In this document: positions 8,115-63,552 of the stretch, in pieces
How the letters are laid out: every line of letters begins with the position of its first letter
How positions within the stretch are numbered: position 1 is the first letter of the stretch
Assembly (NCBI RefSeq): GCF_900114325.1
Contig: NZ_FOSR01000006.1
Span: 62,001 to 126,000, forward strand
Direction of reading: 5' to 3'
DNA length: 64,000 nucleotides
From: Rhodanobacter glycinis
GTDB lineage: Bacteria > Pseudomonadota > Gammaproteobacteria > Xanthomonadales > Rhodanobacteraceae
Program-made: the position numbers and the translations under genes
The notes under the pieces: model-generated
The model's input: only the letters and a program-made list of their open reading frames with translations
What the model was told of the DNA's origin: nothing
The model's database searches: none

Positions 8115-8168
8115 GGCGCTGGCCTGCCATGGGTATGGAAGGCCATCCGAATCACGCGTGACTGGCAC

Positions 8169-33035: not shown

Positions 33036-33140
33036 GCGACGCGCCACCCACATCTGCGCACGCTTGTCATGCTGCGCCGCGAAAGCAGTGGCCTCGGCAA
33101 GGGACTAAAATTGACTGGATAAACTCATCGCCCCGGCCTC

Positions 33141-33306
33141 TAGGGGCCTGGGCGGTAGAAACTTTCGAGGCGAAAAAGTGGCTGCGTGAGGACAGATTTT
33201 CGACGATTCGCCGGCCCATAGTGGTTCTATGGGCCAAGAAGCGACGGGAATATGGACCACGCAGACGCTTTTGCCGTCCGGAAGATTTCTCCCGCCCAGG
33301 CTCCTA
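33141..33306. repeat. Long TAGGAGC-type palindrome, copy B
   Basis: About 166 bases, the reverse orientation of copy A: GCCTGGGCGGTAGAAAC on the left, CCCGCCCAGGCTCCTA on the right, central GGCCCATAG TGGTT CTATGGGCC (about 33213-33235). It sits 114 bases before the dehydrogenase start. Confidence 0.85.
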
Positions 33307-33419
33307 CGCCTGGGGCTTTGAGTTTCAGGCAATGCCCTGGCGGGGCCGCACTGGATCGACCTTCGCCGCCTTCCGCAGTCGCTGTTTGCAGTGCTGCATA
33401 ACGTGGAGTCAACGTTCCA

Positions 33420-34520
33420 ATGATTTTCGAAACCATCGCCCAAACCGATCATGAGCAGGTCGTTTTCTGCCAGAACCGGGACGCCGGCCTGAAGGCCATC
33501 ATCGCGGTTCACAACACGGTGCTGGGCCCTGCGCTCGGCGGTCTGCGCATGTGGCCTTACAAGACCGAGCAGGATGCGGTGAACGACGTGCTGCGCCTGT
33601 CGCGCGGCATGACCTACAAGAACGCCGTGGCCGGCCTGAACCTGGGCGGCGGCAAGGCCGTCATCATCGGCGATCCGAGCAAGGACAAGTCCGAGGCGCT
33701 GTTCCGCGCGTTCGGCCGCTTCGTCAACTCGTTGAATGGCCGCTACATCACCGCCGAAGACGTCGGCATCGACGTCAACGACATGGAATACGTGTTCCGT
33801 GAAACCGAATACGTCACCGGCGTGCACCAGGTGCACGGCGGCTCGGGCGATCCGTCGCCGTTCACCGCCTACGGTTCGCTGCAGGGCCTGATGGCCTCGC
33901 TGCAGGCCAAGTTCGGCAACGAGGACGTGGGCAAGTACAGCTATGCGGTGCAGGGCTGCGGCCACGTCGGCGGCGAGTACATCAAGCTGCTGCGCGAACA
34001 GGGCGCCAAGGTGTTCGTCACCGACATCAACAAGGAAGCGGTGCAGCGCTGCGTGGACGAGCTGGGCTGCGAAGCGGTGGGCCTGGACGAGATCTATGAC
34101 GTCGACGCCGACGTGTACAGCCCGTGCGCGCTGGGCGGCACGGTGAACGAGCAGACCATCGACCGCATCAAGGCGAAGATCATCTGCGGCCCGGCCAACA
34201 ACCAGCTGGCCACCGACGCGATTGGCGACGAGCTGCAGAAGCGCGGCGTGCTGTACGCGCCGGACTACGCGGTGAACGCCGGCGGCGTGATGAACGTCTC
34301 GCTGGAAATCGACGGCTACAACCGCGAGCGCGCGATGCGCATGATGCGCACGATCTACTACAACCTGAGCCGCATCTTCGAGATCAGCAAGAACGAAGGC
34401 ATCCCGACCTACAAGGCCGCCGATCGCCTGGCCGAGGAGCGCATCAGCGCGATCGGCAAGATCAAGCTGCCGCACATGGGCAACGGCACCCGCTTCCAGG
34501 GTCGCATGCGCGGGCAGTAA
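33420..34520 (+). CDS. Leu/Val/Phe-type NAD-dependent amino-acid dehydrogenase
   Basis: 366 residues from ATG 33420. The substrate domain has RMWPYKTEQDAVNDVLRLSR and the catalytic lysine in NLGGGKAVI (K79), with a second lysine at MTYKNA (K67). The NAD domain has the Rossmann motif VQGCGHVGGEYI (about 179-190). The pattern is that of leucine dehydrogenase (oxidative deamination of leucine, valine and isoleucine to branched 2-oxo acids), cytosolic and octameric in known cases. It probably feeds branched acyl-CoA synthesis for lipids or degradation and fits with isovaleryl-CoA dehydrogenase (53155) and IcmF in the window. A terminator lies 40 bases downstream. Confidence 0.85.
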   Translation: MIFETIAQTDHEQVVFCQNRDAGLKAIIAVHNTVLGPALGGLRMWPYKTEQDAVNDVLRLSRGMTYKNAVAGLNLGGGKAVIIGDPSKDKSEALFRAFGRFVNSLNGRYITAEDVGIDVNDMEYVFRETEYVTGVHQVHGGSGDPSPFTAYGSLQGLMASLQAKFGNEDVGKYSYAVQGCGHVGGEYIKLLREQGAKVFVTDINKEAVQRCVDELGCEAVGLDEIYDVDADVYSPCALGGTVNEQTIDRIKAKIICGPANNQLATDAIGDELQKRGVLYAPDYAVNAGGVMNVSLEIDGYNRERAMRMMRTIYYNLSRIFEISKNEGIPTYKAADRLAEERISAIGKIKLPHMGNGTRFQGRMRGQ

Positions 34521-34563
34521 ACCGCCGCGTACATCGTGGAACCACCCGGTTCCGCCATCGACG

Positions 34564-34593
34564 AGCCCGGCCTTGCGCCGGGCTTGTTCGTTT
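34564..34593 (+). terminator. Intrinsic terminator after the dehydrogenase gene
   Basis: 8-bp stem AGCCCGGC (34564-34571) and GCCGGGCT (34577-34584), loop CTTGC, then TGTTCGTTT. Clear intrinsic form. Confidence 0.75.
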
Positions 34594-34841
34594 ACGGGCT
34601 CCGCATGGCCGGTTTTGTAGGAGCGCACCCTGTGCGCGAATGCTCTGGCGTCCGCTCGAAGCAAGAGCCATCGCGCACAGGGTGCGCTCCTACATGCGAA
34701 TTCGGTAAGGCTTTGAAATCGCCTGCACCGGAGCGACGCCCCCCCATGAAGCACCTGAAGCTTCGCCGACAGGTGGGGGATTTTCGCGCGCGCTCCGTTA
34801 CATCGAAGGCGACCCGATCGGCGGGTCTGTCGTCTTTCATC
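34594..34841. repeat. Spacer with a TAGGAGC-type hairpin (34617-34693)
   Basis: Perfect 23-bp arms 34617-34639 and 34671-34693 with the GCGCACCCTGTGCGCGA version of the stem. No gene otherwise. Confidence 0.8.
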
Positions 34842-37800
34842 ATGGGGAAATACGTGCGCAAGATTCCGTACCGACCGCTGGCGCTGGCTTTGGCCTGCCT
34901 GCTTGCTCCCTGCGCCCAGGCGTGGGCCGACAGCATTCCGCTGGATATCATCCAGGAAGGCAACAGCCAAGCCTATGCCTATCGGCTCGGCATCAACGTC
35001 GGCGTGAACGGCGCCAAGCCCGAGGAATACATCTTCGATACCGGCTCGGATTCGTTCAACATCGACGTGGGCCTGACTGCGCTCGGTGGCAGCGGCCCTG
35101 CCTGGTTCCCCACCCAGCCCGGTACGGCCACCGGCCCGCTGCAGTTCTATCTCTACGGTAATGGCACCTACGGCTACCTGCAGTCGTCCACCACCGTGGC
35201 CAGCATGCAGTTCTACAACTCGACCACGGGTGCCCAGGTGGCCGGCTATGGCACCGCGGCCGGCGCGCCGGTGGCGATCAACTACGCCTACGTGACCACC
35301 ATCGCCACCGGCCCGGTGGTGGGTACGTTTCCCGACGGCACCACGCTGAAGATCGACGAGAATTTCCAGAACAGCCTGGCCAAGGGCATTGCCCCGGAAG
35401 AAGGCGCGTTCTACGGCATCTTCGGTGCCGGCGATTTCGGCAACGGCGTGCCCGGCATGCTGAGCAAGAGCGGTTACATCGTCGAGGCCAACGGCACCGG
35501 CGTGGGACCGGGCAACTGCGGTCCAGCCTGCCTGATCGAGGGCCTGACGCCGGCACTGCGCGCGCAGTTCCTCACCGCAGTGCCGTGGATCGGCGGTGCG
35601 CAGGGTTCGTTCGCGCTGTCCGGTGCCAATTCCGCCAGCCAGTTCGATACCGAGTTCACCTACACCTTGTCGCAGGGCGGCCAGACGCTGTGGAGCGCGA
35701 CCTACCCCACGCTGTTCGACACCGGCACGCCGGACATCATGCTGATCGACAACGATGACGGCTATCCGCCGGGCTCCGCGTTGAACCCGGGCATCACCCT
35801 GACCGCCACCGGCGCGGTGGCCGGTGCGCAGGGTTCGTCCATCGTCTCGGGCGACCCGAACAGCGGCGACTACAGCAACGTGGTGGGCATCGGCCCCTAC
35901 GGCGGCTTCCCGGACAGCGCGATCTACGGCATCTCGTTCTTCTTCCACAACGCGGTGATGTACGACCTGGAAAACCAGCAAACCGCCTACACCCCGTTCT
36001 TCGTCACCGAGGCGCCGATCACCAGCAGCCTGGACGTGACCCCGGACATGGGCCTGCTCGGACTGGCCGGCAACATTTCCGGCACCGGCACGCTGCAGGT
36101 GGAAGCCAACGGCGTGGCCAACCTCAGCGGCACCAACACCTACACTGGCGCCACCCGCGTGGCCGCCAACGGCTGGCTGGGCCTGGCCGGTCCCGGCAGC
36201 ATCGCGGATTCGTCGAACGTGCAGGTGGATGGCGTGTTCGACATCTCGCGCACCAGCCACACCACCGACATCCGCTCGCTGTCCGGCAGCGGCTACGTTG
36301 CCCTGGGCGATGCCACGCTGAACCTCACCGCGGCCAATGGCCGCTTCGACGGCAGCCTGGTCGACGGCGGGCTTAGCGGTGGCGTGGGCGGCCACCTGAT
36401 CGTGTCCGGCGGCAGCGAACTGCTGACCGGCGACAACAGCTTCACCGGCCCCACCGGCATCGGCGCGAACGGCGCGCTGGTGCTCACCGGCGCGTTGACC
36501 GGCAACGCGATCAACCTCGGCTTGCTGGTGGACAACGGCCTGATCCGTGGCTCGGTGCTGAACAACGGCCTGTTGCTCGGCAACGGTCGCATCGGCGGCG
36601 CGCTGCAGGTCGATGGCATGGTGGCCCCCGGCCAGGGCGCCGGCAGCTTCCAGACGCTGGCGGTGGCGGGCAACTACGTGCAATCGGCGACGTCCCGCTA
36701 TCTGGCGCAGGTCGATCTCGGTCATCCCGGCACATCGAGCCTGATCGACGTAGGTGGCCACGCCAGCCTGCTCAGCGGTGCCAGCCTGGCCGTCACCGCC
36801 AAGCCGGGTACCTTGTACAGCGTCGGTTCGCGCTACACCGTGCTCGATGCCGCGAAGGGCGTGAGCGGCACCTATGCGCTGGCCGGCGACATGGCGATCA
36901 GCCCGATCCTGGGTCTGGCCACGGCCTACGATGCACGGCACGTGTACCTGGACGTGGTGCAGTCGCGCCCGCTGACTGCCGTCGGCGGCACGCCGAACCA
37001 GGTGGCCGCACTGGGCGGCGTGCAGAGCCTGGCACCGACCAGCGCGCTGTTCACCGTGCTCGCCAACCAGCCCAGCGATGCCGCCATTCGCAGCGCCGCC
37101 GACCAGCTCTCCGGCGAAATCCACGCCAGCGTGCAAAGCGCCTTCCTGTCCGACAGCCACTACCTGCGCGATGCCGTGAGTGCCCGCCTGCGCCAGGGCA
37201 ACGACGACGCCACCGCGGCCGGCCCTTCGGTGCAGGCCGGCGCCAACGGACAGGCGTGGTGGGGCCAGTTCATCGGCGCCTGGGGCCATAACGATGGCGA
37301 CGGCAACGCGGCCCGCAGTCGACAGAACCTGGGCGGTTTCCTGGTCGGACACGACATCGCCATGGGCCAGGCCAGCCGCTTCGGCATCACCGCCGGCTAC
37401 ACCCAGACCGCGGTCAATGTCGACGGGCGCCAATCGTCCGCCAACAGCGACGACCTGCACCTGGGCGCGTATGTCGGCAGCCAGCTCGGCAACTTCAACC
37501 TGGGCATGGGCGTGGCCTGGACCCGGCATGAGATCAAGACGCGCCGCCTCATCGCCATGCCCTACCTGCTCGACGAGGCGCGCGGCGACTACACCGCCCA
37601 TACCTCGCAGGCGTTCGGTGAAGCCAGCTACACCTACCACTTCAAGCGCTCGGTGCTGGAACCGTTTGCGCAGGCGGCCTGCGTGCGCACCTACACCGGC
37701 ACCGTCCGCGAGCAAGGGGGCATCGAAACGCTGACCGGCCACAACGACCAGCACCGCACATTCTTCACCACGCTGGGCGCTCGCGCCGCCACCTGGTTCA

Positions 37801-38069
37801 TCGCCAACAACAACCGCATCACCGCGCACGGCATGCTCGGCTGGCGCCATGCGTCCGACTACGTCAGGCCGCAAGACGCGCTGGCCTTCGACGGCGGCAA
37901 CAGCTTCACCACTACCGGCGTGCCGATTGCCCGCAACGCGCTGGCGGTGGAAGCGGGGCTGACGGCACAGGTGTCGACGTCAGCCTCGTTCGACCTGTCC
38001 TACCAGGGCCAGGTGGCCAGCCATGCGCTGGATAGCGGTTTCCATGTCGGCTTCAACTGGACGTTCTGA
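34842..38069 (+). CDS. Autotransporter with pepsin-like aspartic protease passenger
   Basis: 1075 residues from ATG 34842; GTG 34854 with GGGGAAAT upstream is an equally good start. Signal peptide about 1-29 (ending AQAWA). Residues about 35-395 show a two-lobed pepsin pattern: DTGS at 66-69 in YIFDTGSDSFNID, an AFYGIFGAGDFG turn (189-200, like pepsin's DGILGLG), a second DTGT at 293-296 in LFDTGTPDIML, and a closing YGISFFFHNAVMYDLENQQ (362-380) like pepsin's final strand. Four cysteines are few. Residues about 400-700 hold autotransporter beta-strand repeats (GTGTLQVEANG, NTYTGATRV). The last about 280 residues form the translocator barrel, ending GFNWTF. Secreted, surface-bound or released protease; substrate unknown. 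Confidence 0.85.
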   Translation: MGKYVRKIPYRPLALALACLLAPCAQAWADSIPLDIIQEGNSQAYAYRLGINVGVNGAKPEEYIFDTGSDSFNIDVGLTALGGSGPAWFPTQPGTATGPLQFYLYGNGTYGYLQSSTTVASMQFYNSTTGAQVAGYGTAAGAPVAINYAYVTTIATGPVVGTFPDGTTLKIDENFQNSLAKGIAPEEGAFYGIFGAGDFGNGVPGMLSKSGYIVEANGTGVGPGNCGPACLIEGLTPALRAQFLTAVPWIGGAQGSFALSGANSASQFDTEFTYTLSQGGQTLWSATYPTLFDTGTPDIMLIDNDDGYPPGSALNPGITLTATGAVAGAQGSSIVSGDPNSGDYSNVVGIGPYGGFPDSAIYGISFFFHNAVMYDLENQQTAYTPFFVTEAPITSSLDVTPDMGLLGLAGNISGTGTLQVEANGVANLSGTNTYTGATRVAANGWLGLAGPGSIADSSNVQVDGVFDISRTSHTTDIRSLSGSGYVALGDATLNLTAANGRFDGSLVDGGLSGGVGGHLIVSGGSELLTGDNSFTGPTGIGANGALVLTGALTGNAINLGLLVDNGLIRGSVLNNGLLLGNGRIGGALQVDGMVAPGQGAGSFQTLAVAGNYVQSATSRYLAQVDLGHPGTSSLIDVGGHASLLSGASLAVTAKPGTLYSVGSRYTVLDAAKGVSGTYALAGDMAISPILGLATAYDARHVYLDVVQSRPLTAVGGTPNQVAALGGVQSLAPTSALFTVLANQPSDAAIRSAADQLSGEIHASVQSAFLSDSHYLRDAVSARLRQGNDDATAAGPSVQAGANGQAWWGQFIGAWGHNDGDGNAARSRQNLGGFLVGHDIAMGQASRFGITAGYTQTAVNVDGRQSSANSDDLHLGAYVGSQLGNFNLGMGVAWTRHEIKTRRLIAMPYLLDEARGDYTAHTSQAFGEASYTYHFKRSVLEPFAQAACVRTYTGTVREQGGIETLTGHNDQHRTFFTTLGARAATWFIANNNRITAHGMLGWRHASDYVRPQDALAFDGGNSFTTTGVPIARNALAVEAGLTAQVSTSASFDLSYQGQVASHALDSGFHVGFNWTF

Positions 38070-38550: not shown

Positions 38551-38820
38551 ATGAGCACCATTTTGGCAGCAGGGATCAGCGACGCGGAGATTCTGGGCAG
38601 ACTCCGCGAAGTGCTGCACGAGACCTTCGAGATCGCCCCGGCCCGGGTCACGCCTTCGGCCCACCTGTTCACCGACCTGGAGCTGGACTCCATCGACGCG
38701 GTGGACCTGGCGATCCAGGTGCAGGAAATGACCGGCATGCGGATCAAGCCGGAAGACTTCAAGAACGTGCGCACCGTCGGCGACGTGATCGCCACGGTCC
38801 ATGCCCTGCTCGGCCGCTGA
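38551..38820 (+). CDS. Acyl carrier protein 1 of the aryl-polyene cluster
   Basis: 89 residues from ATG 38551. Four-helix carrier fold with the phosphopantetheine serine in LELDSIDAVDLAI (S47). First gene of the cluster. Aryl-polyene systems use two carrier proteins (ApeE/ApeF-type); the second is at 47023. It carries the growing polyene chain between ketosynthase, ketoreductase and dehydratase. Overlaps or abuts the glycosyltransferase gene. The start is chosen for its MSTILAAGISDAEIL helix and AGGCGGAA upstream; a much longer open frame from 38188 is spurious. Confidence 0.85.
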   Translation: MSTILAAGISDAEILGRLREVLHETFEIAPARVTPSAHLFTDLELDSIDAVDLAIQVQEMTGMRIKPEDFKNVRTVGDVIATVHALLGR

Positions 38821-38836
38821 GCCCGCCGCGCGCCTC

Positions 38837-39610
38837 ATGCCGGACGCCAGCGACGGTTTCGCGCCCTGCGCGCTGATCCCGATCTACAACCACGGCAGCA
38901 CCATTGCGCGCACGGTGCACGCCTTGCGTGCACATGGCTTGCCAGTGCTGATCGTGGATGACGGCAGCGATGCAGCCACCCGCGACGTGCTCGATGCGCT
39001 GGCGCGCGACGAGGCAGGCGTGCAACTGCTGCGCCTGCCGTACAACCAGGGCAAGGGCCGCGCACTTTCCGCCGGCCTGCTGGCCGCGCACAAGGCGGGT
39101 TACAGCCATGCGCTGCAGATCGATGCCGACGGCCAGCACGACACCGACGACGTGCCACGCTTCCTGAACGAGGCGCGCGCCCATCCGCGCGCGCTGGTCT
39201 GCGGCTGCCCGATCTACGACGACAGCGTGCCGCGCGGACGCTTGTACGGACGCTACGTCACCCATGTCTGCGTGTGGCTGGAAACGCTGTCGCTGGCGAT
39301 CCGCGATTCGATGTGCGGCTACCGGCTGTACCCGCTGGCCGCCACCTGCGCCGAGATCGCCCGGGCGCCGCTGCCGGCACGCATGGATTTCGATACCGAA
39401 GCCGCCGTGCGACTGGTCTGGCGCGGCGTAGCTGTACGCAACCTGCCTACGCGGGTGATCTACCCCGAGAACGGCTTGTCACATTTCCGTATGCTGCAGG
39501 ACAACCTGCGCATCAGCGCGATGCATACGCGTCTGTTGCTGGGCATGCTGCCTCGGGCTCCGCGCCTGTTGTGGCGCCGATTCCGTGGAGAAAATGCATG
39601 CGTCGCCTGA
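38837..39610 (+). CDS. Family 2 glycosyltransferase
   Basis: 257 residues from ATG 38837; ATG 38801 would overlap the ACP gene. GT-A fold: ALIPIYNHGSTIARTV at the start, VDDGSDAAT (nucleotide-binding acidic pair), QIDADGQHD (DxD metal motif, about 91-99). The C-terminal third lacks membrane helices. In enterobacterial aryl-polyene clusters the glycosyltransferase is fused to a lysophospholipid-type acyltransferase (ApeJ); here the two are separate (acyltransferase at 48260). It likely attaches a sugar or carries out the step that ties the polyene to a membrane anchor. Confidence 0.8.
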   Translation: MPDASDGFAPCALIPIYNHGSTIARTVHALRAHGLPVLIVDDGSDAATRDVLDALARDEAGVQLLRLPYNQGKGRALSAGLLAAHKAGYSHALQIDADGQHDTDDVPRFLNEARAHPRALVCGCPIYDDSVPRGRLYGRYVTHVCVWLETLSLAIRDSMCGYRLYPLAATCAEIARAPLPARMDFDTEAAVRLVWRGVAVRNLPTRVIYPENGLSHFRMLQDNLRISAMHTRLLLGMLPRAPRLLWRRFRGENACVA

Positions 39611-40242
39611 TCGCCCCCCTGTTCCTGAGCTGCCTGCTGCTGTGCGTTGCGAGCGTTGCCGCGCAAACCACCGCGCCCCAAGCCACCGCGCCTGACGATG
39701 CGCTGTTGCAACACGTGCTGGCCGAACTGGGCCAGCATCAGGCCGTGCGCGCCGACTTCGTGCAGACCCGGGCGAATCCCGCGCTGACCCAACCGCAGGT
39801 GAGTCGCGGCCAGCTGCTGTTCGTGCTCAACCACGGCATGCTGTGGCAGACGCAATCGCCGTACGCCGAAACGCTGGCGCTCACCGGCAGGCATGCCGCG
39901 CGCATCGACGCGCAAGGCCACGCGCACCCGATGCGCGACGCGCGCGGCATGGACCGCATTTCGCAGATGCTGCAATCGATGCTCGCCGGCAAGCTCGACG
40001 AGGTACTGCGCCAGTTCAACGTGGTGGCCAGCGGCACGACGGCCAACTGGACGCTGCGCTTCACCCCGAAGCAGGAGCGCATGGCACGCGTGCTGGGCAG
40101 CATCACGCTCAGTGGTGACGCGTTCCTCGAAGGCATCCGCATCGCCATGCATGACGGCGGCAGCACCGACATCCGCTTCGCGCACACGCGCGATGCCGGC
40201 CCGCTCAGCGCGCTGGAACAGCGCGCCCTCGGCCTGCCATGA
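39598..40242 (+). CDS. LolA-like periplasmic carrier (ApeL type)
   Basis: 214 residues from ATG 39598 (GGAG upstream), overlapping the glycosyltransferase end by 13 bases. Signal peptide 1-22. LolA-like open beta-barrel: RADFVQTRANPAL, LFVLNHGMLWQT, then alternating strands to LSALEQRALGLP. In aryl-polyene systems this protein is thought to accept the lipid-linked polyene in the periplasm and pass it to the outer membrane. Paired with the MMPL exporter, whose start overlaps its stop by four bases. Confidence 0.85.
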   Translation: MRRLIAPLFLSCLLLCVASVAAQTTAPQATAPDDALLQHVLAELGQHQAVRADFVQTRANPALTQPQVSRGQLLFVLNHGMLWQTQSPYAETLALTGRHAARIDAQGHAHPMRDARGMDRISQMLQSMLAGKLDEVLRQFNVVASGTTANWTLRFTPKQERMARVLGSITLSGDAFLEGIRIAMHDGGSTDIRFAHTRDAGPLSALEQRALGLP

Positions 40243-42620
40243 CGCTGCCGCAAGACATGCCATCGCGGAGGCTGAAGCTGCGCGCCGGCCTGTTCGCCCT
40301 CGGCACGCTGCTGGTCGCCGCGCTGGGTGCCTACCTGCTGTTCGGGCGCGGCCAGGTGGCGATTCAGACCGATCTGCTGGCGATGCTGCCGACCACCGAG
40401 CAGAACCCGATGGCCGAAGCGGCCGTGCAGCGGCTGGCACACGCCAACGGCGACCGCATGGTGCTTCTGGTGGAGAACGCCGACGATGACCGCGCCAAGG
40501 CCGCCGCACGCGAGCTGGGCAAGGCGCTGGCACAACACAAGGTGTTCGACTCGGTCATGGCCGAGCTGCCACCGTTCGACCTCAAACAGATGGTGGCGCC
40601 GTATCTCGCGCATCGCTTCTGGTTGCTCACCGATGCCGACCGCGCCGCACTCGCCGCGCCCGGCCACGATCCCGCGCAGGCATTGGCCCGTCGTTTGAAT
40701 GCGCCGTTCCTCGACGGCGTGGGCACGAGCCTGCAGGACGACCCGTTCGGCTGGCTGCAGCACTGGCTGGACCAGCAACCGTGGAGCCGCTCGCCACTGC
40801 TGCCCGAGGATGACCTGCTGGTCGCGCATCGCGGCGACAAGACCTACGTGCTGGTGACGGCCGCGCTGGCCGGCTCGTCCTACGACGACAGCGTGCAGCA
40901 GCGCGCATTGGCCGCACTGGCCGGCGCCGAACAAAGCATCAGGCACGACTACCCGGGCACGCACCTGTCGCGCACCGGTGCGGTGTTCTATGCCGCTGCC
41001 GCACGGGCCGGCGCGGAACACGACGTGCACATGGTCGGCTGGATCTCCAGCATCGGCATCGCGCTATTGCTGATCGGCATGTTCCGCTCGCCCGGCCCGC
41101 TGCTGCTGGCCTTCCTGTCCACCGCCGTCGGCGTGATCGCGGCCACCACGGTGAGCTTGCTGGTATTCGGCCAGATCTACCTGCTGACTCTGGTGTTCGG
41201 CGCGGCACTCTTGGGTGAGGCGGTGGACTATTCGATCCAGTACCTCACCGCGCGTGCGAATGCCGGCGCGAACTGGCACGCCTCGACCGGCCTGCGCCAG
41301 GTGCGCCCGGCCCTGCTGCTGGCGCTGGCCACCTCGTTGCTTGGCTACGCGCTGCTCGGCCTGGTGCCGTTCCCCGCGCTGCGACAGATGTCGGTGTTCG
41401 CGATGAGCGGCATGCTCGCCGCCTGTCTCAGCGTGTTCGGCCTGCTGCCGGCCTTGCTGCAACGCCCGGCCCGACCCTTGTCGGCGCGGCCGGTGCGCTG
41501 GGCGCTGGCCTTGCAACGCACGGTCAACCGCTTCGGTCGCGGGGCGCGCGGCGCGGGTGTGGCGCTGCTGTTGCTGCTGCTCGCGCTACCCGGTTGGTGG
41601 CAACTGGGCCACAACGACGACGTGCATCTGCTGATCGCCCAACCCGCCGGCCTGCTGGCGCAGGAGGCACAGATCCGCGACATCACCGGACTCGGCAACG
41701 GCAGCCAGTTCTACCTGGTGCAAGGTGCCAATACCGAACAGACGCTGCAGCGCGAAGAAGCGCTCGACCGGCGCCTGCAATCGATGGTCGACCATCAGCA
41801 ATTGCAAGGCTGGATCGGGCTGGCCGGCATGGTGCCATCGCAGCAACGCCAACAGGTGGACCATGCCTTGCTGGCGCCGTTGATGAGTCATCCCGAGCGC
41901 GTGCGCGCCTTGCTTGCCGGTGCCGGCTTCCGCGCCAACGCCATCGACGCGTGGCTGGCGGCGTGGCCCGGCACGCCGTTGACGCTGGATGCCTGGCTGA
42001 AGACGCCACTGGCCACGCCATTCCGCTATCTGTGGATGGGTTGCAGCGCGCAAGGCTGCGGCACCATCGTGCTGCCGCAAGGCACCGACGACGACGCCAC
42101 GCTGCAACGTGCCGCCGATGGTCTGCCCGGCGTGAGCCTGGTCGACAAACCGGCCAGCGTGTCGCAACTGTTCGGCCGCTACCGCCGCTACGCCAGCGTG
42201 TGGCTGCTGGCGGCGATCGTGCTGATCGTGCCGGTATTCGGCTGGCGCTACGGCTGGCGTCGCATGCCGCGCGTGATGACGCCGCCGGTGCTGGGGATCG
42301 CACTGACCCTGGCAACCCTGGGCTATCTGCATCAGCCGCTGACGCTGTTCCACTGGATGGCCTTGATGCTGGTGCTCGGCGTGGGCGCCAATTACGCCGT
42401 ATTTCTGCACGAAGGCGAGCCGCACGCCGCGCACCGCCCCGGCGCGATGTATGCCAGCGTGTTGCTGTCGGCGATCACCGCTTTGCTTTCATTCGGGCTG
42501 CTGTCTCTCAGCTCGATGCCGGCGTTGCGGGACTTCGGGCTCACGTTGTTGCTGGGCATCGGGTTTACCGCATTGCTGGTGCCGGCGAGTCGGGCCGGCA
42601 CGATGGATGCGGCACCGTGA
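40239..42620 (+). CDS. MMPL/RND-type exporter (ApeM type)
   Basis: 793 residues. Twelve predicted membrane helices in the two-times-six MMPL arrangement: a first helix at about 12-35, a periplasmic loop of about 230 residues, a block of five helices (about 265-420), a second helix/loop block, and the final five helices ending LLVPASRAG. Expected to move the finished aryl-polyene lipid across the inner membrane using proton motive force. Starts within the LolA-like gene's stop codon, so translation is coupled. Confidence 0.85.
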   Translation: MTLPQDMPSRRLKLRAGLFALGTLLVAALGAYLLFGRGQVAIQTDLLAMLPTTEQNPMAEAAVQRLAHANGDRMVLLVENADDDRAKAAARELGKALAQHKVFDSVMAELPPFDLKQMVAPYLAHRFWLLTDADRAALAAPGHDPAQALARRLNAPFLDGVGTSLQDDPFGWLQHWLDQQPWSRSPLLPEDDLLVAHRGDKTYVLVTAALAGSSYDDSVQQRALAALAGAEQSIRHDYPGTHLSRTGAVFYAAAARAGAEHDVHMVGWISSIGIALLLIGMFRSPGPLLLAFLSTAVGVIAATTVSLLVFGQIYLLTLVFGAALLGEAVDYSIQYLTARANAGANWHASTGLRQVRPALLLALATSLLGYALLGLVPFPALRQMSVFAMSGMLAACLSVFGLLPALLQRPARPLSARPVRWALALQRTVNRFGRGARGAGVALLLLLLALPGWWQLGHNDDVHLLIAQPAGLLAQEAQIRDITGLGNGSQFYLVQGANTEQTLQREEALDRRLQSMVDHQQLQGWIGLAGMVPSQQRQQVDHALLAPLMSHPERVRALLAGAGFRANAIDAWLAAWPGTPLTLDAWLKTPLATPFRYLWMGCSAQGCGTIVLPQGTDDDATLQRAADGLPGVSLVDKPASVSQLFGRYRRYASVWLLAAIVLIVPVFGWRYGWRRMPRVMTPPVLGIALTLATLGYLHQPLTLFHWMALMLVLGVGANYAVFLHEGEPHAAHRPGAMYASVLLSAITALLSFGLLSLSSMPALRDFGLTLLLGIGFTALLVPASRAGTMDAAP

Positions 42621-42888
42621 AAACAGTCCACGTCCATCGCGCGCCCTCAACGTCATTCCGGCGCAGGCCGGAATCTAGTGAAACATGTCGTGCGCAGCAC
42701 TCGAAACAGGCTTTGTGCGCTTCACGCGAGATATCTGACTGGATTCCGGCCTGCGCCGGAATGACGGGCAGCAAACCCAGCGACTTCGCGAGCACCCACC
42801 CCTCACCCCAACCCTCTCCCCCACGGGGAGAGGGAGCGGAGCGCGCACGATTCGTGACCACGAAACCATCGACAAGGATGCCGCCAGC
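42621..42888. repeat. Repeat-bearing gap inside the polyene cluster
   Basis: A CGTCATTCCGGCGCAGGCC inverted pair at about 42650-42775 and a CCCCTCACCCC / CCCTCTCCCCCACGGGGAGAG half-palindrome at 42796-42838. It splits the cluster into transcription blocks after the exporter gene. Confidence 0.65.
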
Positions 42889-44112
42889 ATGAAGCGCGTC
42901 GTCATTACCGGCATGGGCGGGATCACCGCGCTGGGCCACGACTGGGACACCATCGCAACACGCCTGCGCGAGGGTCGCAACGCGGTGCGGCGCATGCCCG
43001 AGTGGGATTACTTCGATGGCCTGAACAGCCGCCTCGGTTGTCCCGTGGACGATTTCGACGTGCCACGCTGGCCGCGCCAGAAACTGCGTTCGATGGGGCG
43101 CGTGGCGCAGTTGGCCGTGGCCGCCAGTGAACATGCCTTGCGCGATGCCGGGCTGCATGACGACGCGACGATTCGCGACGGCCGCATGGGTGTGGCTTAT
43201 GGTTCGTCCGGCGGCAGCATCGAGCCGGTGCGGGTGATGGGTCGCATGCTCGACACCGGTTCGATGCAGGGCGTCACCGCCACCAGTTATATCCAGATGA
43301 TGGCGCACACCACCGCAGTGAACGTCGGCGTGTTCTTCGGACTGAAGGGGCGGATCATTCCCACCTCCAGCGCATGTACCTCCGGCAGCCAGGCGATCGG
43401 TTACGGCTACGAGGCGATCCAGCACGGCAAGCAGAAGCTCATGTTGTGTGGCGGTGCGGAGGAGCTTTCCGGCCCCGGCGCGGCGGTGTTCGACACGCTG
43501 TTCGCTACCAGCACGCGCAACGACGAAGCGCAGCTCACGCCGCGTCCGTTCGACCGCCATCGCGACGGGCTGGTGGTGGGTGAAGGGGCCTGCACGCTGG
43601 TGCTGGAGGAATACGAACACGCCAGGGCGCGCGGCGCGACGATCCATGCGGAAGTGCTGGGCTTCGGTTGCAATTCCGATGGCGCGCACATCACCCAGCC
43701 CACCGCCGAAACGATGGCGGTGGCGATGCGGCTGGCGCTGGATGACGCGCAACTGCCAGCGGACGCGATCGGCTACATCAGCGCCCACGGCACCGCCACC
43801 GACCGTGGCGACGTGGCCGAAAGCCACGCCACCCACGACGTATTCGGTGCGCGCGTGCCGATCAGCTCGATGAAGAGTTACGTCGGCCACACGCTGGGCG
43901 CCTGCGGCGCGCTGGAAGCGTGGTGGACAGTGGCGATGATGCGTGAAGGCTGGTTTGCGCCCACGATCAACCTGAGCGAGATCGATCCGGAATGCGCCGA
44001 GCTGGATTACATCATCGGCAGCGCTCGCCAGCTCGCCACCGAGCGCGTGATGAGCAACAACTTCGCCTTCGGCGGCATCAATACCTCGCTGATCCTCGGG
44101 GCCTGCGCATGA
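42889..44112 (+). CDS. Ketosynthase, FabF-like (KS 1)
   Basis: 407 residues. The thiolase-fold triad is complete: Cys163 in SSACTSGSQAIG, His300 in SAHGTATDRGD and His334 in SYVGHTLGACG. Corresponds in position and type to the ApeR/ApeO ketosynthases of aryl-polyene clusters, condensing malonyl units on the carrier protein. Stop and next start are close. Cytosolic. The second ketosynthase follows within 20 bases. Confidence 0.85.
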   Translation: MKRVVITGMGGITALGHDWDTIATRLREGRNAVRRMPEWDYFDGLNSRLGCPVDDFDVPRWPRQKLRSMGRVAQLAVAASEHALRDAGLHDDATIRDGRMGVAYGSSGGSIEPVRVMGRMLDTGSMQGVTATSYIQMMAHTTAVNVGVFFGLKGRIIPTSSACTSGSQAIGYGYEAIQHGKQKLMLCGGAEELSGPGAAVFDTLFATSTRNDEAQLTPRPFDRHRDGLVVGEGACTLVLEEYEHARARGATIHAEVLGFGCNSDGAHITQPTAETMAVAMRLALDDAQLPADAIGYISAHGTATDRGDVAESHATHDVFGARVPISSMKSYVGHTLGACGALEAWWTVAMMREGWFAPTINLSEIDPECAELDYIIGSARQLATERVMSNNFAFGGINTSLILGACA

Positions 44113-44131
44113 CGTGCGGAGCGTGCAGTTG

Positions 44132-45379
44132 ATGCGCCTGCGCGACGCCAACGGCCTGCCGCGCGTGGTGGTGACCGGCAGCGGTTCGCTATCCTGCCTG
44201 GGTCACGGCAACGTGGCGTTCTTCGATGCCTTGCGCGCGGGCCGTGGTGGCTTGCGCCCGATGGCGGGGTTCGCTGCGCTGGGCCTGCGCGCTCGTGTGG
44301 GCGGCCCGGTCGACCTCACCGGTATGCCCGAAGCACCGCGCAAGCTGCGCCGTTTTTTCGCCCCGCCCGGCCTGTACGCGTGGCATGCCGCGAACGAGGC
44401 GTTCGCGCAAGCGGGCGTGACGCCGGAACACCTGCGTGCTGATGACTGCGGACTGGTATTCGGTGGCGGCGCCGCGCTGAGCGAACACGAAGCGGGGCTG
44501 GCCAGTCATCGCGCCAAAGGCATCGCCAAGCTGTCGCCGTTCTGGGTGCCACGCGGCATGAGCAGCGCGCTGTCCGCCAGCCTGGCGCATGCGTTCGACA
44601 TCGGCGGCACCAGCCTCACCCTCAGCTCGGCCTGCACCAGCGCCACCCACGCGATTGGCCACGCGATGGAGCTGATCCAGCTCGGTCGCCAACAGATGGT
44701 GGTCACCGGCGGCGCGGAAGAACTGCACGACAGCACGGCGATGTGGTTCGACGCGATGGGTGCGCTGTCGCCACAGCATGATCCCGCGCTGGCCTCGCGT
44801 CCCTGCGACCGCGACCGCGACGGCTTCGTGCTGGCCGCCGGCGCCGGCGTGCTGGTGCTGGAATCACTGGAACATGCGCACGCGCGCGGTGCCACCGTGC
44901 TGGCCGAACTCGCCGGCTACGGCAACTGCACCGATGCCGCCAGCATGGTCGGCCCCGGTGCCGACGGCATCGCCCGCGCAATGCGCCAGGCACTGGACCG
45001 CGCCGGCACCCTGCCCGACTACATCAACACCCACGCCTGCTCCACGCCGCAGGGCGACCTGGCCGAATGGCAGGCCATCCGCACGGTGTTCGCCGAGCGC
45101 GGCGCGGCGGTGCCACCGCTGTCCTCGATCAAGGGCCTGACCGGTCACGCCCCCGGCGCCGCCGGTGCGCTGGATGCCATCGCCGGATTGCTGATGATGC
45201 AGCACGATCTGCTCGTCGCCGGCCGGGTGGTGGACACACCCGATCCCGACTTCGCCGATGCTCCATTGCTCGCTGCCAACCGCGCGCAACGCATCGACAG
45301 CGTGCTGTCCAACAGCTTCGGCTTCGGCGGCAGTTGCGCCTCGCTGCTATTCCGCCGCTACACGGAGGACGCCGCATGA
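44132..45379 (+). CDS. Ketosynthase, FabF-like (KS 2)
   Basis: 415 residues from ATG 44132 (GGAG eleven bases upstream); GTG 44114 also opens the frame. Cys168 in SSACTSATHAIG, His301 in NTHACSTPQGD (the usual HGT is HAC here) and His339 in LTGHAPGAAGA, so a catalytic triad is possible. More divergent than KS 1 and KS 3: the first 100 residues are unusual and the family's HGTxT motif is altered. Likely part of a heterodimer with a ketosynthase or chain-length partner. Same strand, 19 bases after KS 1. Confidence 0.8.
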   Translation: MRLRDANGLPRVVVTGSGSLSCLGHGNVAFFDALRAGRGGLRPMAGFAALGLRARVGGPVDLTGMPEAPRKLRRFFAPPGLYAWHAANEAFAQAGVTPEHLRADDCGLVFGGGAALSEHEAGLASHRAKGIAKLSPFWVPRGMSSALSASLAHAFDIGGTSLTLSSACTSATHAIGHAMELIQLGRQQMVVTGGAEELHDSTAMWFDAMGALSPQHDPALASRPCDRDRDGFVLAAGAGVLVLESLEHAHARGATVLAELAGYGNCTDAASMVGPGADGIARAMRQALDRAGTLPDYINTHACSTPQGDLAEWQAIRTVFAERGAAVPPLSSIKGLTGHAPGAAGALDAIAGLLMMQHDLLVAGRVVDTPDPDFADAPLLAANRAQRIDSVLSNSFGFGGSCASLLFRRYTEDAA

Positions 45380-45509
45380 GGGCCTCCCGGGAAACCCGCA
45401 AGGCATCCGTGGGTAAGAGCGCACCCTGTGCGCGATGGCTTTGGCGCCGGTCGAAGCCAGAAGCGTTCGCGCACAGGGTGCGCTCCTACACTGACTTTTC
45501 GAGGTGTCC
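45380..45509. repeat. TAGGAGC-type hairpin in the polyene cluster
   Basis: Arms 45413-45435 and 45467-45489 (one mismatch; GTAAGAGC on the left). It lies between KS 2 and the chain-length-factor-like gene. No other feature. Confidence 0.8.
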
Positions 45510-46259
45510 ATGATCGACCTGCGCATCGAACGCTGGCAGGCATGGGCGCCCGGCCTGGACAACGCCGCGGCGTGGCAAGCCTGGGCACAAGCGCCACACG
45601 CCGTGTCCGACGACGGCAAGCTGCAACCAGCGTGTGCCTTCCTGCCGGCGATGCAGCGCCGCCGCCTGAGCCGGCTGGCGCGCATGACCCTGGAAGCCGC
45701 GTGGCCGCTGTGCGACGACGGCGAGCAATTGCCATTCGTGTTCGCCTCGCGTCATGGCGAAACCACGCGCACGCTCGCCCTGCTTGGCGACCTGGTCGAT
45801 GAGCAGCCGCTGTCGCCGACCCAGTTCGGCCTGTCGGTGCATAACGCCATCGCCGGTCAATGGTCGATTCTGCGCGAACAGCGCGGCGAGTCGGTGGCGC
45901 TTGCCGGCGAGGCCGATGCCTTCGAGCACGCCATGCTGGAAGGCACGCTGCAACTGGCCGCCGGCGCCCCATCCGTGCTGGTGGTGGTCGCCGAGGAACT
46001 GCCGCCGCCGGCCTATGCCGAGTGGATCGACGACGTGCCGTTCTCCTATGCTGTCGCGCTGCGTTTGGGGAAAACCACAGCCACCGGCGAAGCGCCGACC
46101 ACCACCGACTGGCAACTGCAGCCAGGCCGGCACGACGACCGTGGCACACCTTGCGCATGGCCGCACGCGCTGGATTTCCTGCGCGCTCTGCTCGTTCATG
46201 AACCGTCACTGGAACACGTATGGAAAGCACGCCGCTGGAACTGGCAACGCAGCCGCTGA
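45510..46259 (+). CDS. Chain-length-factor-like protein (beta-ketoacyl synthase N-terminal type)
   Basis: 249 residues from ATG 45510 (GAGG five bases upstream). Reads as a truncated thiolase fold (RHGETTRTLALLGDLV, SPTQFGLSVHNAIAGQWSIL, VVVAEELPPP) without any catalytic cysteine or histidine at the usual places. Matches the beta-ketoacyl-synthase chain length factor family (ApeC type) that pairs with a ketosynthase to set the number of double bonds. The next start lies 40 bases inside its 3' end, so translation is coupled. Confidence 0.8.
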   Translation: MIDLRIERWQAWAPGLDNAAAWQAWAQAPHAVSDDGKLQPACAFLPAMQRRRLSRLARMTLEAAWPLCDDGEQLPFVFASRHGETTRTLALLGDLVDEQPLSPTQFGLSVHNAIAGQWSILREQRGESVALAGEADAFEHAMLEGTLQLAAGAPSVLVVVAEELPPPAYAEWIDDVPFSYAVALRLGKTTATGEAPTTTDWQLQPGRHDDRGTPCAWPHALDFLRALLVHEPSLEHVWKARRWNWQRSR

Positions 46260-47026
46260 ACCGGCGCACCGACGCATGGGCCGTGCGGCTGGTCGCCACC
46301 GGCGCCAGCTTCGTGCTGTTCGGATTGGGCGGCCTGCTGCTGTGGATATTCCTGCTGCCGGTGCTGGCCTGCCTGCCCGGTGGAGTGATGGCACGACGCC
46401 GGCGCGCACGCGCCGCGATCAGTCGCGCGTTCCGCCTGCACGCCTGGTTCATGCGACGCAGCGGCGTCCTCACCTTGCATATCGATGGCGTGCAGCGACT
46501 GGGACAACCCGGCCAGATGATCGTGGCCAACCATCCCTCGCTGATCGACGTGGTGTTTCTGATCGGCCAGTTGCGCGACACCAACTGCATCGTCAAGGCC
46601 GGCCTGTTTCGCAACCCGTGCATGCGCGGGCCGGTGCGCGCGGCGCAATACATCAGCAACGATGGCAGCATGACCATGCTGGAGCGCGCCGCCGACGTGC
46701 TGCGCGAAGGGCAATCGCTGCTGGTGTTTCCCGAAGGCACGCGCACCACGCCGGGCTGCGCGCCGGTGTTCCATCGCGGCGCGGCGGCCATCGCCTTGCG
46801 TGGCGCGCGTTGCGTCACACCGGTGTTCATCACCGTCGAACCGACCACGCTGACCAAGGCCGAGCCGTGGTATCGCATCCCCGACCGCCGCGTGCAGGTG
46901 CGCCTGCGCGTGGGCGCGGACATCGACCCCGCCGACTTCAACACCAACGCACCACTGCCGGTCGCCTCGCGCCGGCTCAACGACCATTTGCATCAACTCT
47001 TTCTCAGGGAACTCGCCACCTCGTGA
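46220..47026 (+). CDS. Lysophospholipid acyltransferase-like protein (ApeD type)
   Basis: 268 residues. N-terminal membrane helix (about 25-50). PlsC-type acyltransferase motifs: NHPSLID (H105-D110, the HX4D catalytic pair) and FPEGTR (170-175). In aryl-polyene systems this type is thought to acylate or anchor the polyene to a lipid. Overlaps the preceding gene by 40 bases and the following carrier protein by four, so translation is coupled. Confidence 0.8.
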   Translation: MESTPLELATQPLNRRTDAWAVRLVATGASFVLFGLGGLLLWIFLLPVLACLPGGVMARRRRARAAISRAFRLHAWFMRRSGVLTLHIDGVQRLGQPGQMIVANHPSLIDVVFLIGQLRDTNCIVKAGLFRNPCMRGPVRAAQYISNDGSMTMLERAADVLREGQSLLVFPEGTRTTPGCAPVFHRGAAAIALRGARCVTPVFITVEPTTLTKAEPWYRIPDRRVQVRLRVGADIDPADFNTNAPLPVASRRLNDHLHQLFLRELATS

Positions 47027-47313
47027 ACGCACCGACCCAGACCGCACTCGAGCAGGCCATCGCCCAGCTCATCATCGACACGCTGAACCTGGAAGACCTC
47101 CAGGCCTCCGACATTCCGCCGGCGCAACCGCTGTTCGGCGAAGGCCTGGGGCTGGACTCGGTGGACGCGCTGGAACTGGCGCTGGCGCTGCAGAAGCGTT
47201 ACGGCATTCGCGTGGAATCCGATGCGAAGAACGCACGCGAGCACTTCGCCACCGTCGCCAACCTCGCCGCCTATGTCGCCTCGCAGCAAGGCGCCGGCGA
47301 TGGCGCACACTGA
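47023..47313 (+). CDS. Acyl carrier protein 2
   Basis: 96 residues from GTG 47023, whose G-T-G-A overlaps the TGA of the acyltransferase gene. Phosphopantetheine serine in GLGLDSVDALEL (S46). Second carrier protein of the cluster, as in ApeE/ApeF pairs. Small and acidic; expected to be modified by a cellular 4'-phosphopantetheinyl transferase. None is visible in this window. Confidence 0.85.
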   Translation: MNAPTQTALEQAIAQLIIDTLNLEDLQASDIPPAQPLFGEGLGLDSVDALELALALQKRYGIRVESDAKNAREHFATVANLAAYVASQQGAGDGAH

Positions 47314-52964: not shown

Positions 52965-53042
52965 GTAGGAGCGCACCCTGTGCGCGAATGCTTTTCGCCG
53001 AGGACCGGCATTAGAGCATTCGCGCACAGGGTGCGCTCCTAC
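52965..53042. repeat. TAGGAGC-type hairpin after the polyene cluster
   Basis: Perfect 28-bp arms 52965-52992 and 53015-53042 of the GCGCACCCTGTGCGCGAATGCT version. It lies just after the last cluster gene and may act as terminator in addition to being a repeat. Confidence 0.85.
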
Positions 53043-54923: not shown

Positions 54924-57029
54924 TCATTTACACTCACACGATTTGCCGCCAACATTGGGGCTGTCTAACATGGCGCCACCAACTCCGCCGAGTATTCCAC
55001 CTATTGCGGCACCACGGCTACCGCCTACAATGGAGGCGGTAGCGTAGGGTTCAGGCGCCTCAGTTATTAACCATTTGATAACGTTTTCAGCAGCCAAATC
55101 GGACGCACCTCCTGTTTCAGGTGTAGTCATTAAAGCCACTACTGCGGTAGTTCCAATAGCAAACCCAGCCAGCATTCCCATGCCAGCAAGACCGTTTCTA
55201 TAAAAGTGCGGATCCATATTACAACTTGGAACATTCCCCGTTTCGAAAACAGTTGGATTTCCACCATTATTCCACGATCCAACTCCTTCTAAGCCGAGGA
55301 GATCGATACTATTTAATGGATTGCTTCCCACATAGGCATAAGTATTCGGCCCGGCCTTCAACCCCAGCGGATCACTCTCCACATACCTTCCCAATGCTGG
55401 GTCGTAGTCCCGGAACCCGTTGTTCCACAGCCCCGTCTCTTGGTCGTAGTACTGCCCTGGGAATCCAACATTCAGCGGCGCCGAACTCGACACCGCCACG
55501 TCCCGCGTGAACGGCCAGTTCTGTGCACTCCACACCACAGCCTGCGACGCATTCGTCACCACTTGAGGGCGACCTAGTTGATCGTCGTGGATCGCTTCCA
55601 GTTGTCCGCTCACATCGCGTCCAATCAAACGCCCGCCCAGCCACACGTAATCGATCCACTGACCGTTGTCGCTCTCTGCTAGCAAGGAACCGCTGGGGCC
55701 CGGCGCAAAGTAGGTCGTCCCTGCACTGCCCGTCTTGAGGAGCCGTTGCCCTTCCGGGTTGACGTAGTAGCTCATGCCGCCTGTCGCTTTCATCCGGTTG
55801 AACGCATCATACTGATAGGCAACTGTGCCACCCAACGTGGTGATGTTGCCCAGCGCATCGTAACCGTAGGTTTGCGCGTTCGCTCCCGTCGTTTGCGTGA
55901 GGTGGTTGTTGGTGGCGCTGTAGCTGGCGCTGCTCGTGCCGGCACCGTTCACGCTGGCGATGCGGTTGCCATCCGCGTCGTAACTGTAGCTGGCGCCCTG
56001 GTTGAGTGAATACATCGACACCAACCGCGATTGGTCGTCATAACCGAAGTCCTGGCTCATCGTGCCGTCGAGCGCATTGTCGATACCGGTGAGACGATTG
56101 GCCTTGTCATAGCTGAACCCCAGGCTTTCCACGCCCGGTACGCTGATGCCTGTAAGGCGACCATCGGTGTCGTACGCCAATGTGTTGGTCAACCCATTGC
56201 TCGACGTCCAGCCTGTCACTGCGGCATCCATCGGCTGCCACGCGATATTGCTCGCGGCGGTGAGCTGGGTACCGCCCATCGCGAACGTGATGTCGGACAC
56301 CACGCCCCGACTATAGCTATAAAGCGCCTGATGACCGTCCGGATAGGTCACAGCAGCCAGATGGCCCACGGCGTCGTAACCGTAGCCCAGTGAGTAGCTG
56401 GTGCCATTGATCGAGAAACCACGTCCCGCAACCCGACCCTCGGGGGTATAGGTATAGGTCGTGGAGCCAATAGCATCGCTGGCGGAGCACAGACGACCCA
56501 CACCGTTCGTGCAGTTGTCGTAGGCGTAGGTCTGAACCTGACTTCCGGCGCTGACGCTAGTGGGGCGATTGATAGTGTCGTAGCCGTAGGTCGTGGTCAC
56601 ACCATTGGCACGGGTCAGGCTGATGCGCCGTCCATAAGCATCGTAGTTAGCAGTACTGGTGCCCGTATCGGGGCTGGACACCCCCCACAGCAGGCCCAGC
56701 CCATCATAGTTGTAAGCCGTGACCAGCCCCCGCGGATCAGTCACCGTAGTGACGTGATTCCCGGCGTCGTAGGTGTACTGGGTCACCGTGGTCGAGGCTA
56801 TTGCGGATGCGGTCACGCCAAGGCTTCCGGCACACAGCAAGGCCAGCGCCGTTTTCCGCCCCAGGCTTCTTGACGGTGCTTCCCGGCTGTTGGCACCCGC
56901 CTTGGCGTACATCCGACGCCGCAGGTTTGACAAACCGGACTCGCACGAACGGATCGAACGACACCCCTGTTCAATTGGCAGAGCCGACGATTGCCTGGAA
57001 ACAGTTGCCACGTGGAGTTCCTTTTTCAT
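54924..57029 (-). CDS. Rhs-repeat protein with variable hydrophobic C-terminal tail
   Basis: 701 residues from ATG 57029, whose SD (GAGG) overlaps the stop of the upstream Rhs gene. An alternative start at the ATG for MYAKAGANSREAPSRS places a signal-like segment (KTALALLCAGSLGVTASAIA) near the N-terminus. YD repeats run through most of it. The core ends with FRDYDPALGRYVESDPLGL and NPLNSIDLLGL, the boundary after which Rhs tails are swapped. The tail (about 120 residues) has a Gly-rich hydrophobic segment (GLAGMGMLAGFAIGTTAV) and a GSRGAAIGGILGGVGGAM stretch, then a Cys end. No toxin family recognised; pore-forming or membrane-acting is plausible. Confidence 0.75.
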   Translation of the reverse strand: MKKELHVATVSRQSSALPIEQGCRSIRSCESGLSNLRRRMYAKAGANSREAPSRSLGRKTALALLCAGSLGVTASAIASTTVTQYTYDAGNHVTTVTDPRGLVTAYNYDGLGLLWGVSSPDTGTSTANYDAYGRRISLTRANGVTTTYGYDTINRPTSVSAGSQVQTYAYDNCTNGVGRLCSASDAIGSTTYTYTPEGRVAGRGFSINGTSYSLGYGYDAVGHLAAVTYPDGHQALYSYSRGVVSDITFAMGGTQLTAASNIAWQPMDAAVTGWTSSNGLTNTLAYDTDGRLTGISVPGVESLGFSYDKANRLTGIDNALDGTMSQDFGYDDQSRLVSMYSLNQGASYSYDADGNRIASVNGAGTSSASYSATNNHLTQTTGANAQTYGYDALGNITTLGGTVAYQYDAFNRMKATGGMSYYVNPEGQRLLKTGSAGTTYFAPGPSGSLLAESDNGQWIDYVWLGGRLIGRDVSGQLEAIHDDQLGRPQVVTNASQAVVWSAQNWPFTRDVAVSSSAPLNVGFPGQYYDQETGLWNNGFRDYDPALGRYVESDPLGLKAGPNTYAYVGSNPLNSIDLLGLEGVGSWNNGGNPTVFETGNVPSCNMDPHFYRNGLAGMGMLAGFAIGTTAVVALMTTPETGGASDLAAENVIKWLITEAPEPYATASIVGGSRGAAIGGILGGVGGAMLDSPNVGGKSCECK

Positions 57030-57040
57030 CGTCCGCGCCC

Positions 57041-63174: not shown

Positions 63175-63552
63175 CTGATTGTCCCCGCTACACATTCCGT
63201 GTCACGACCGACGCGGCAAGACCCCATCCTGCGGTCGGCTACGCGGCACAGTTTGGCATAACCGCCATGCACCGGAACGCTCCCTGGCAGACGTCGAGCG
63301 GTCCGGTTTGCCGCGCCGCATCATGGGCTGCGATAATCCGAAGGCTAGGAGCCTGTCGTACTTTGGTGGTCGAGGCGAAAACTCGGCTGCGCGAGGACAG
63401 ATTTTCGGCGATTCTTGACCCATAGTGGTTCTATGGGTCAAGAATCGACGGAAATATGGACCGTGCAGACGGATTTGCAGCCCGGCCGACCAAAGTACGA
63501 CAGGCTCCTACTCCCGGGCGCATCGCGCCTCCACGTTCCTGCGGAGATCCCC
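63175..63552. repeat. Spacer with long palindrome copy C (63346-63510)
   Basis: Copy C of the TAGGAGC-type palindrome: left arm from TAGGAGCCTGTCGTACTTTG, right arm ending CAAAGTACGACAGGCTCCTA, central CTTGACCCATAG TGGTT CTATGGGTCAAG. Its outer arms differ from copies A and B but remain perfectly paired. The rest of the spacer (63175-63345) shows no feature. Confidence 0.85.

Follow-up and report, generated by a model that had tools for sequence, protein, structure and literature searches.

The window, as we call the whole stretch of 64,000 nucleotides analysed here, carries a gene whose product is likely a type Va autotransporter. Its passenger would be a complete pepsin-type aspartic protease, monomeric and two-lobed, and is inferred to be zymogen-less and exposed at the cell surface. 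The architecture of the protein, its conservation and its predicted fold are shown below; catalysis, surface location, the absence of zymogen control and the substrate are inferred. The novelty lies in a new combination of two known kinds, the pepsin fold and type Va secretion. Judging by predicted fold and catalytic residues, the passenger probably represents a new family of the pepsin fold in clan AA. Its nearest family is A1, but we do not class it as an ordinary A1 member, because the curated model misses it and because it has neither Trp39 nor Asp303 nor the disulphides of pepsin. Pepsin-type proteases are rare in bacteria and mostly thought to be cytoplasmic there. A conserved exported family in Proteobacteria would, if the inferred activity holds, add a catalytic class to the protease autotransporters, and it provides one more bacterial lineage in which the origin of two-lobed pepsins can be studied.

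Gene start and domain layout

A preliminary description, made from the sequence alone, had reported the reading frame at 34842-38069, DTGS at residues 66-69 and DTGT at residues 293-296 (227 residues apart), the stretches AFYGIFGAG and YGISFFFHNAVMYDLENQQ, and a C-terminal FNWTF, all of which held as quoted. The frame is present in the window as a listed ORF of 1075 amino acids on the + strand, and we keep the numbering of that description, in which the ATG at 34842 is residue 1. The same ATG had been taken as the start, and this we correct. The true start is very likely the GTG at 34854 (residue 5), because a GGGGA lies at 34844-34848, the start codons of homologues align with it (GTG, TTG or ATG at this codon in 12 homologues) and the residues upstream are not conserved. 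The resulting layout is as follows.

34844..34848 (+), Shine-Dalgarno sequence GGGGA of the likely start, read from the sequence; a purine-rich stretch also precedes the aligned homologue starts
34854..34856 (+), likely start codon GTG, from the start codon alignment of 12 homologues
34854..34928 (+), signal peptide VRKIPYRPLALALACLLAPCAQAWA, residues 5-29; n-, h- and c-regions read by eye
34929..36023 (+), passenger catalytic unit, residues 30-394 (365 aa), predicted two-lobed pepsin-type aspartic protease; from AlphaFold2, Foldseek against the PDB and dN/dS
36024..37241 (+), stalk with PATR-like repeats, residues 395-800; homologues match PF12951 at this place
37257..38066 (+), autotransporter beta-barrel, residues 806-1075, ending FNWTF; PF03797, E 4.9e-53, and TIGR01414, E 1.5e-40

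The three signal-peptide regions are typical, in the homologues too, although this rests on visual reading only, and the mature protein is predicted to begin near residue 30. PF03797, at residues 806-1055, is the sole Pfam match of the protein and leaves the passenger unrecognised, and NCBIfam likewise returned barrel and stalk models only. With a C-terminal PF03797 barrel whose last residue is aromatic, the barrel criterion for type Va is satisfied; the earlier claim of autotransporter repeats followed by a barrel also held, the repeats forming a PATR-like stalk. By sequence the gene product is an autotransporter, and its surface location is inferred. A match far below cut-off to the NCBIfam model of the serine peptidase EprS was set aside, as it covers residues 527-1075, which are stalk and barrel and not passenger.

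An antisense ORF of 1589 amino acids (33105-37874, -) was considered as a gene and rejected as a high-GC shadow frame. Substitutions relative to the nearest homologue number 184, 156 and 280 at codon positions 1, 2 and 3 of the + frame, a bias that favours this frame over the antisense one. The antisense frame also spans a leucine-dehydrogenase-like gene, and pieces of it are open in relatives too.

Predicted fold and catalytic residues

The preliminary description had proposed a pepsin fold for the passenger, with the predicted fold set beforehand as a refutation test. In a first AlphaFold2 run, using the passenger and 29 close homologues, pLDDT was 65.9 and pTM 0.70, with a poor region over residues 197 to 269; Foldseek with this shallower model already placed chymosin and Rv0977 at the top. 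A second run, with 40 homologues including distant ones and with the Paracoccus plasmid sequence left out, gave pLDDT 90.8 and pTM 0.91 (all five models at 88-91), and the poor region was resolved once the distant homologues had been added. The predicted fold is confidently two-lobed, so the proposal passed its test and is supported.

The best 50 Foldseek matches in the PDB were all pepsin-fold proteins aligned across both lobes, headed by rhizopuspepsin (E 5.7e-10) and including cathepsin D, plasmepsins, pepsin, chymosin, Rv0977 and basic 7S globulin. By AlphaFold2 and Foldseek together, the A1 criterion of a two-lobed fold in one chain is satisfied. TM-scores were only 0.43-0.52 on query length (0.63 on Rv0977), with an rmsd of 7-12 A. 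Because of these modest scores we read the model as predicting a distant pepsin relative with inserts and a different lobe packing, with the caveat that the packing may instead be imperfectly modelled. The high pTM supports one rigid bilobal unit in the prediction; the distance between D66 and D293 was not measured.

Profile searches point the same way. A 41-sequence family profile searched against 177,635 PDB sequences gave five matches at E < 10, four of them A1 proteases. The best was chymosin (E 0.034), with both DTG motifs aligned, and plasmepsin V and plasmepsin IV were matched as well. Each match is weak alone, and what counts is the in-register position of both DTG motifs. PDB sequence searches with the single sequence or a 29-sequence profile returned no matches, and hhalign, run with the family and one bacterial pepsin, aligned the first DTG region only (probability 2.3%), which is uninformative with a lone sequence as partner. 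No curated Pfam or NCBIfam aspartic protease model scored above cut-off on the passenger. PF00026 matched none of the 29 members scanned and nothing in the protein's own genome, and of 229 genomes sampled from the class just 2 had a match. Current family libraries fail to detect this conserved enzyme domain of some 365 residues.

The residues expected of a pepsin-type enzyme were located as follows, with counts taken over the family alignment.

35037..35048 (+), first catalytic motif DTGS, D66-S69; D66, T67 and G68 invariant (41/41)
35154..35177 (+), flap YGNGTYGY, Y105-Y112; Y105 in 41/41, G106 and G108 in 39/41
35415..35432 (+), first psi-loop, hydrophobic-hydrophobic-Gly, GIFGAG, residues 192-197; G192 and G195 in 41/41
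35517..35531 (+), CGPAC, putative small disulphide loop, C226/C230; C226 in 41/41, every sequence having C-x2-C or C-x3-C
35718..35729 (+), second catalytic motif DTGT, D293-T296; D293 in 40/40 with data, Thr or Ser at 294, T296 in 38/40
35925..35966 (+), second psi-loop and end of the C-lobe, YGISFFFHNAVMYD, residues 362-375; G363, F366 and D375 in 39/39

The count for D293 is 40 rather than 41 as one fragment stops short of that position. We take YGNGTYGY to be the counterpart of the pepsin flap Y75-G-T-G, which bears out the flap-like spacer claimed earlier, and GIFGAG that of the first psi-loop of pepsin. The stretch at residues 362-375 we take to match the second psi-loop and last strands. 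The alignment with plasmepsin V, in which ILGLTFFKNRQVIFD falls at this point of the family profile, computes the same correspondence. All A1 motif criteria are satisfied: a catalytic D-T/S-G in each lobe, the Tyr75 flap and the hydrophobic-hydrophobic-Gly psi-loop. Conservation of D66 and D293 across homologues that keep the barrel, the other refutation test set beforehand, was checked and passed, both being invariant. The equivalent of pepsin Thr218 is retained as T296, the position of Trp39 holds a nearly invariant Asn (N73), and that of Asp303 is I364, mostly Ile, Leu, Val or Met in the family. Three cysteines lie outside the signal peptide. C226 and C230, the sole passenger pair, form the conserved C-x2/3-C and are close together as had been claimed, but the third, C947 in the barrel, had been missed. 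Strict placement in family A1 is less sure, with no curated A1 model matching and Trp39, the disulphides and Asp303 not kept.

Could an adhesin passenger of the usual kind have gained these motifs by chance? Two D[TS]G[ST] motifs alone, 150-300 residues apart, did occur in 79 of 100,000 passenger shuffles, whereas the full order of DTGS, YGxG[ST], psi-loop Gly and D[TS]G[ST] occurred in 0 of 100,000. The fold prediction, the conservation and the profile match refute this explanation and all but exclude it, conservation across homologues being stronger evidence than the shuffle statistics. Additional DTG triplets in some Dyella sequences are not conserved in the alignment.

Another explanation is a retropepsin-like (A2-type) domain that was duplicated and fused independently of A1, and so is pepsin-like without pepsin descent. 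In its favour, the only relevant weak Pfam matches are to the retropepsin-like models PF13650 (2 of 29 members, E 0.036) and PF13975 (1 of 29, E 0.09). Against it stand the structural and profile matches to A1 enzymes over both lobes, together with an N-lobe that has an A1-type flap (YGxGT) and a GILG-like psi-loop, and we consider it unlikely. Retropepsins have a single DTG lobe per chain and work as pairs, a criterion that a chain with two motifs and two lobes does not satisfy.

The passenger might also be a non-cleaving binder with a pepsin fold, an adhesin or inhibitor comparable to soybean basic 7S globulin and to the xylanase inhibitors of plants, which keep the fold. Foldseek did match basic 7S globulin, Trp39 is replaced, and for PE_PGRS16 the fold has been solved without proteolytic activity being observed (PMC6819658). 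Nevertheless, lineages that differ at 60-70% of positions all keep the catalytic aspartates, the Gly after each of them and the flap Tyr. A binder would have no need of these residues, which counts heavily against it and makes it very unlikely; a pepsin-type protease remains our preferred reading.

Distribution and selection

Scanning genome contigs with the passenger gave 26 loci in Fulvimonas, Dyella, Rhodanobacter, Neokomagataea, Acetobacter and Zymomonas. Members were found in 11 of 299 genomes of the order and, in a search at the level of the family Rhodanobacteraceae, sporadically in 29 of 233. Diverged members turned up in one further genus of the phylum (three genomes), in one more genome (two copies) and on a Paracoccus plasmid. 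The alignment of 41 sequences reaches down to about 30% identity with the window protein. Homologues extend about 1000-1270 residues past the first motif to an aromatic C-terminus, excepting a truncated copy (L088), contig-end fragments and apparent frameshifts. The barrel is kept in Rhodanobacteraceae, Acetobacter/Neokomagataea, Zymomonas, Paracoccus and other genomes. Besides Rhodanobacteraceae, the family thus reaches into several lineages of Alphaproteobacteria. All of the eight distant homologues scanned carry PF03797 at E < 1e-50, and in five of them the stalk region also matches PATR, three of those matches falling short of the PATR cut-off.

In a maximum-likelihood tree of the passenger, the window protein groups with Fulvimonas inside Rhodanobacteraceae, the Acetobacteraceae and Zymomonas sequences make up a single supported clade in which Zymomonas falls within Acetobacter, and the most diverged members sit on long branches whose exact placement is unsure. 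The four Zymomonas passengers (L022, L023, L024, L031) lie inside the Acetobacter clade with support 100/98, a nesting that suggests transfer between bacteria that may share fermentation habitats. Some genomes hold tandem or second copies (L027:2363-5617 and 5887-9246; L086 and L087; L088 and L089). L088 is a second copy of 664 amino acids with passenger and stalk and without barrel, apparently truncated. In L021 and the second L027 copy the barrel C-terminus is out of frame (RSGQCAAL, ECAVSPRI), possibly through frameshifts or assembly errors.

Relative to the nearest homologue, whose passenger is 89% identical, the passenger has a dN/dS of 0.23, against 0.51 in the stalk and 0.70 in the barrel. 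Adhesin autotransporters commonly show the reverse pattern, with the passenger less constrained. Here constraint is strongest on the passenger, and an enzyme role therefore fits. Comparison of gene neighbourhoods found no conserved partner gene beyond close relatives (shared ORFs were mostly shadow frames), so the protein acts alone as far as genome context shows.

Known systems and proposed role

The nearest known surface analogue is the mycobacterial PecA. PecA and Rv0977 (PE_PGRS16; PDB 4EHC; PMC6819658) are likewise bacterial, surface-directed and built on a two-lobed DTG/DSG fold, and Rv0977 is matched by Foldseek at E 5.2e-9 with a TM-score of 0.63 on target. They belong to another phylum, however, and are type VII substrates with an N-terminal PE region, whereas the window protein has a C-terminal type Va barrel. 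Pfam found no PE domain in it, with a barrel in its place, so the PE_PGRS/PecA criteria of PE domain and type VII export are not satisfied, and the PDB sequence search detected no similarity to PecA/Rv0977.

Shewasins and other bacterial A1 homologues (PMC2761423, PMC4814920) are also two-lobed and without a prosegment, and Asp303 is replaced in both groups, by Leu in the Shewanella and Colwellia homologues and by an aliphatic residue in the window family. When bacterial A1 enzymes were first reported, they had no signal peptides (PMC2761423), and shewasins, lacking a prosegment, stay inside the cell (PMC4814920). In contrast to these cytoplasmic enzymes, the window protein has a putative signal peptide and a barrel. 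We encountered two exceptions to signal-less bacterial A1 enzymes, the mycobacterial surface protease PecA and the secreted Akkermansia enzyme Amuc_1434, which a review assigns to A1 (PMC13271334).

Protease autotransporters such as the SPATEs of S6 and Ssp and SphB1 of S8/S53 share the order of signal peptide (putative in the window protein), N-terminal protease passenger, stalk and PF03797 barrel. Those classified so far are serine (S1, S6, S8/S53), cysteine (C1) or metallo (M10, M28) enzymes (PMC5767081); the aspartic class of the window protein is absent there. APRc of Rickettsia (PMC4140852) is likewise an aspartic protease of the Gram-negative outer membrane, but is single-lobed, retropepsin-like and not itself an autotransporter. 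With the eukaryotic pepsin family (chymosin, cathepsin D, rhizopuspepsin) the window protein shares the fold, two DTG motifs, flap Tyr, psi-loop glycines and, by inference, secretion. It differs in lacking a prosegment, the pepsin disulphides, Trp39 and Asp303, in having about 40 residues inserted into the N-lobe after the flap and before the psi-loop, and in its added stalk and barrel. The earlier remark that no pepsin-like protease was known with type Va delivery held in the 5.39 million open papers searched, where we found none (most subscription journals and preprints were not covered).

We propose that the protein would be exported by Sec, that its barrel would insert into the outer membrane, and that the stalk would help the passenger to cross and fold, the catalytic unit folding only outside the cell. 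In a single cleft, over which the Y105 flap closes, D66 and D293 would then activate water by general acid-base catalysis. Only about 37 residues separate D66 from the predicted signal cleavage site, similar to the position of D32 in mature pepsin, which leaves no room for a prosegment. The unfolded state during export may replace the zymogen as safeguard, and this inference suggests a way of keeping an acid protease harmless without a prosegment. The enzyme would most likely stay bound to the cell and cleave protein outside it or on its surface; we cannot decide between scavenging of extracellular protein and processing of surface proteins.

One rival keeps the same fold and delivery and makes the main job the processing of its own stalk or of surface proteins of the same cell. 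PecA cleaves itself and other PE_PGRS proteins (PMC6819658), the subtilisin autotransporter SphB1 acting on FHA is a precedent, and six further above-cut-off PF03797 matches in the genome are possible clients. On the other hand, there is no conserved adjacent partner gene beyond close relatives, no cleavage site was recognised, and the sporadic presence of the gene (29/233) speaks against a general maturation role. This alternative remains possible.

For the pepsin-type surface protease that we favour, acid activity is plausible by inference and not settled. Six of seven bacterial A1 homologues carry Ala218, and Rawlings and Bateman hold that loss of Thr218 explains their neutral activity (PMC2761423). 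The window family has Thr there (T296), but its hydrogen-bond partner Asp303 is replaced (I364), and the evidence on pH is split. The host names Acetobacter, Zymomonas, Dyella acidisoli and D. acidiphila suggest acid habitats, an inference from names without a control set. Among the hosts are several harmless bacteria of fermentations and soil, and a surface acid protease could serve food processing. A bolder reading, about as likely as not, is that a new clan AA family evolved as an autotransporter passenger, the first aspartic protease autotransporter class and a surface pepsin of acidic-habitat Gram-negatives that is zymogen-free because its unfolded export takes over the zymogen's task.

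Several other features of the window were recorded. A second protease autotransporter, with a subtilase S8 passenger, a PATR repeat and a PF03797 barrel, lies at 60322-63195 (-), about 22 kb from the first. A REP-like palindrome, GTAGGAGCGCACCCTGTGCGCGA, occurs with its inverse 31-32 bases apart at 34617-34693, 45413-45489 and 52965-53042 (chance expectation 0), one copy being just upstream of the autotransporter gene; no exact copy was present in the fetched homologue loci of other genomes. At 38554-47310 (+) a cluster with acyl carrier proteins, a glycosyl transferase 2, an MMPL exporter and a ketosynthase may resemble an aryl-polyene or xanthomonadin cluster, and an RHS-repeat protein (PF05593, 1.1e-30) is encoded at 54924-57080 (-).
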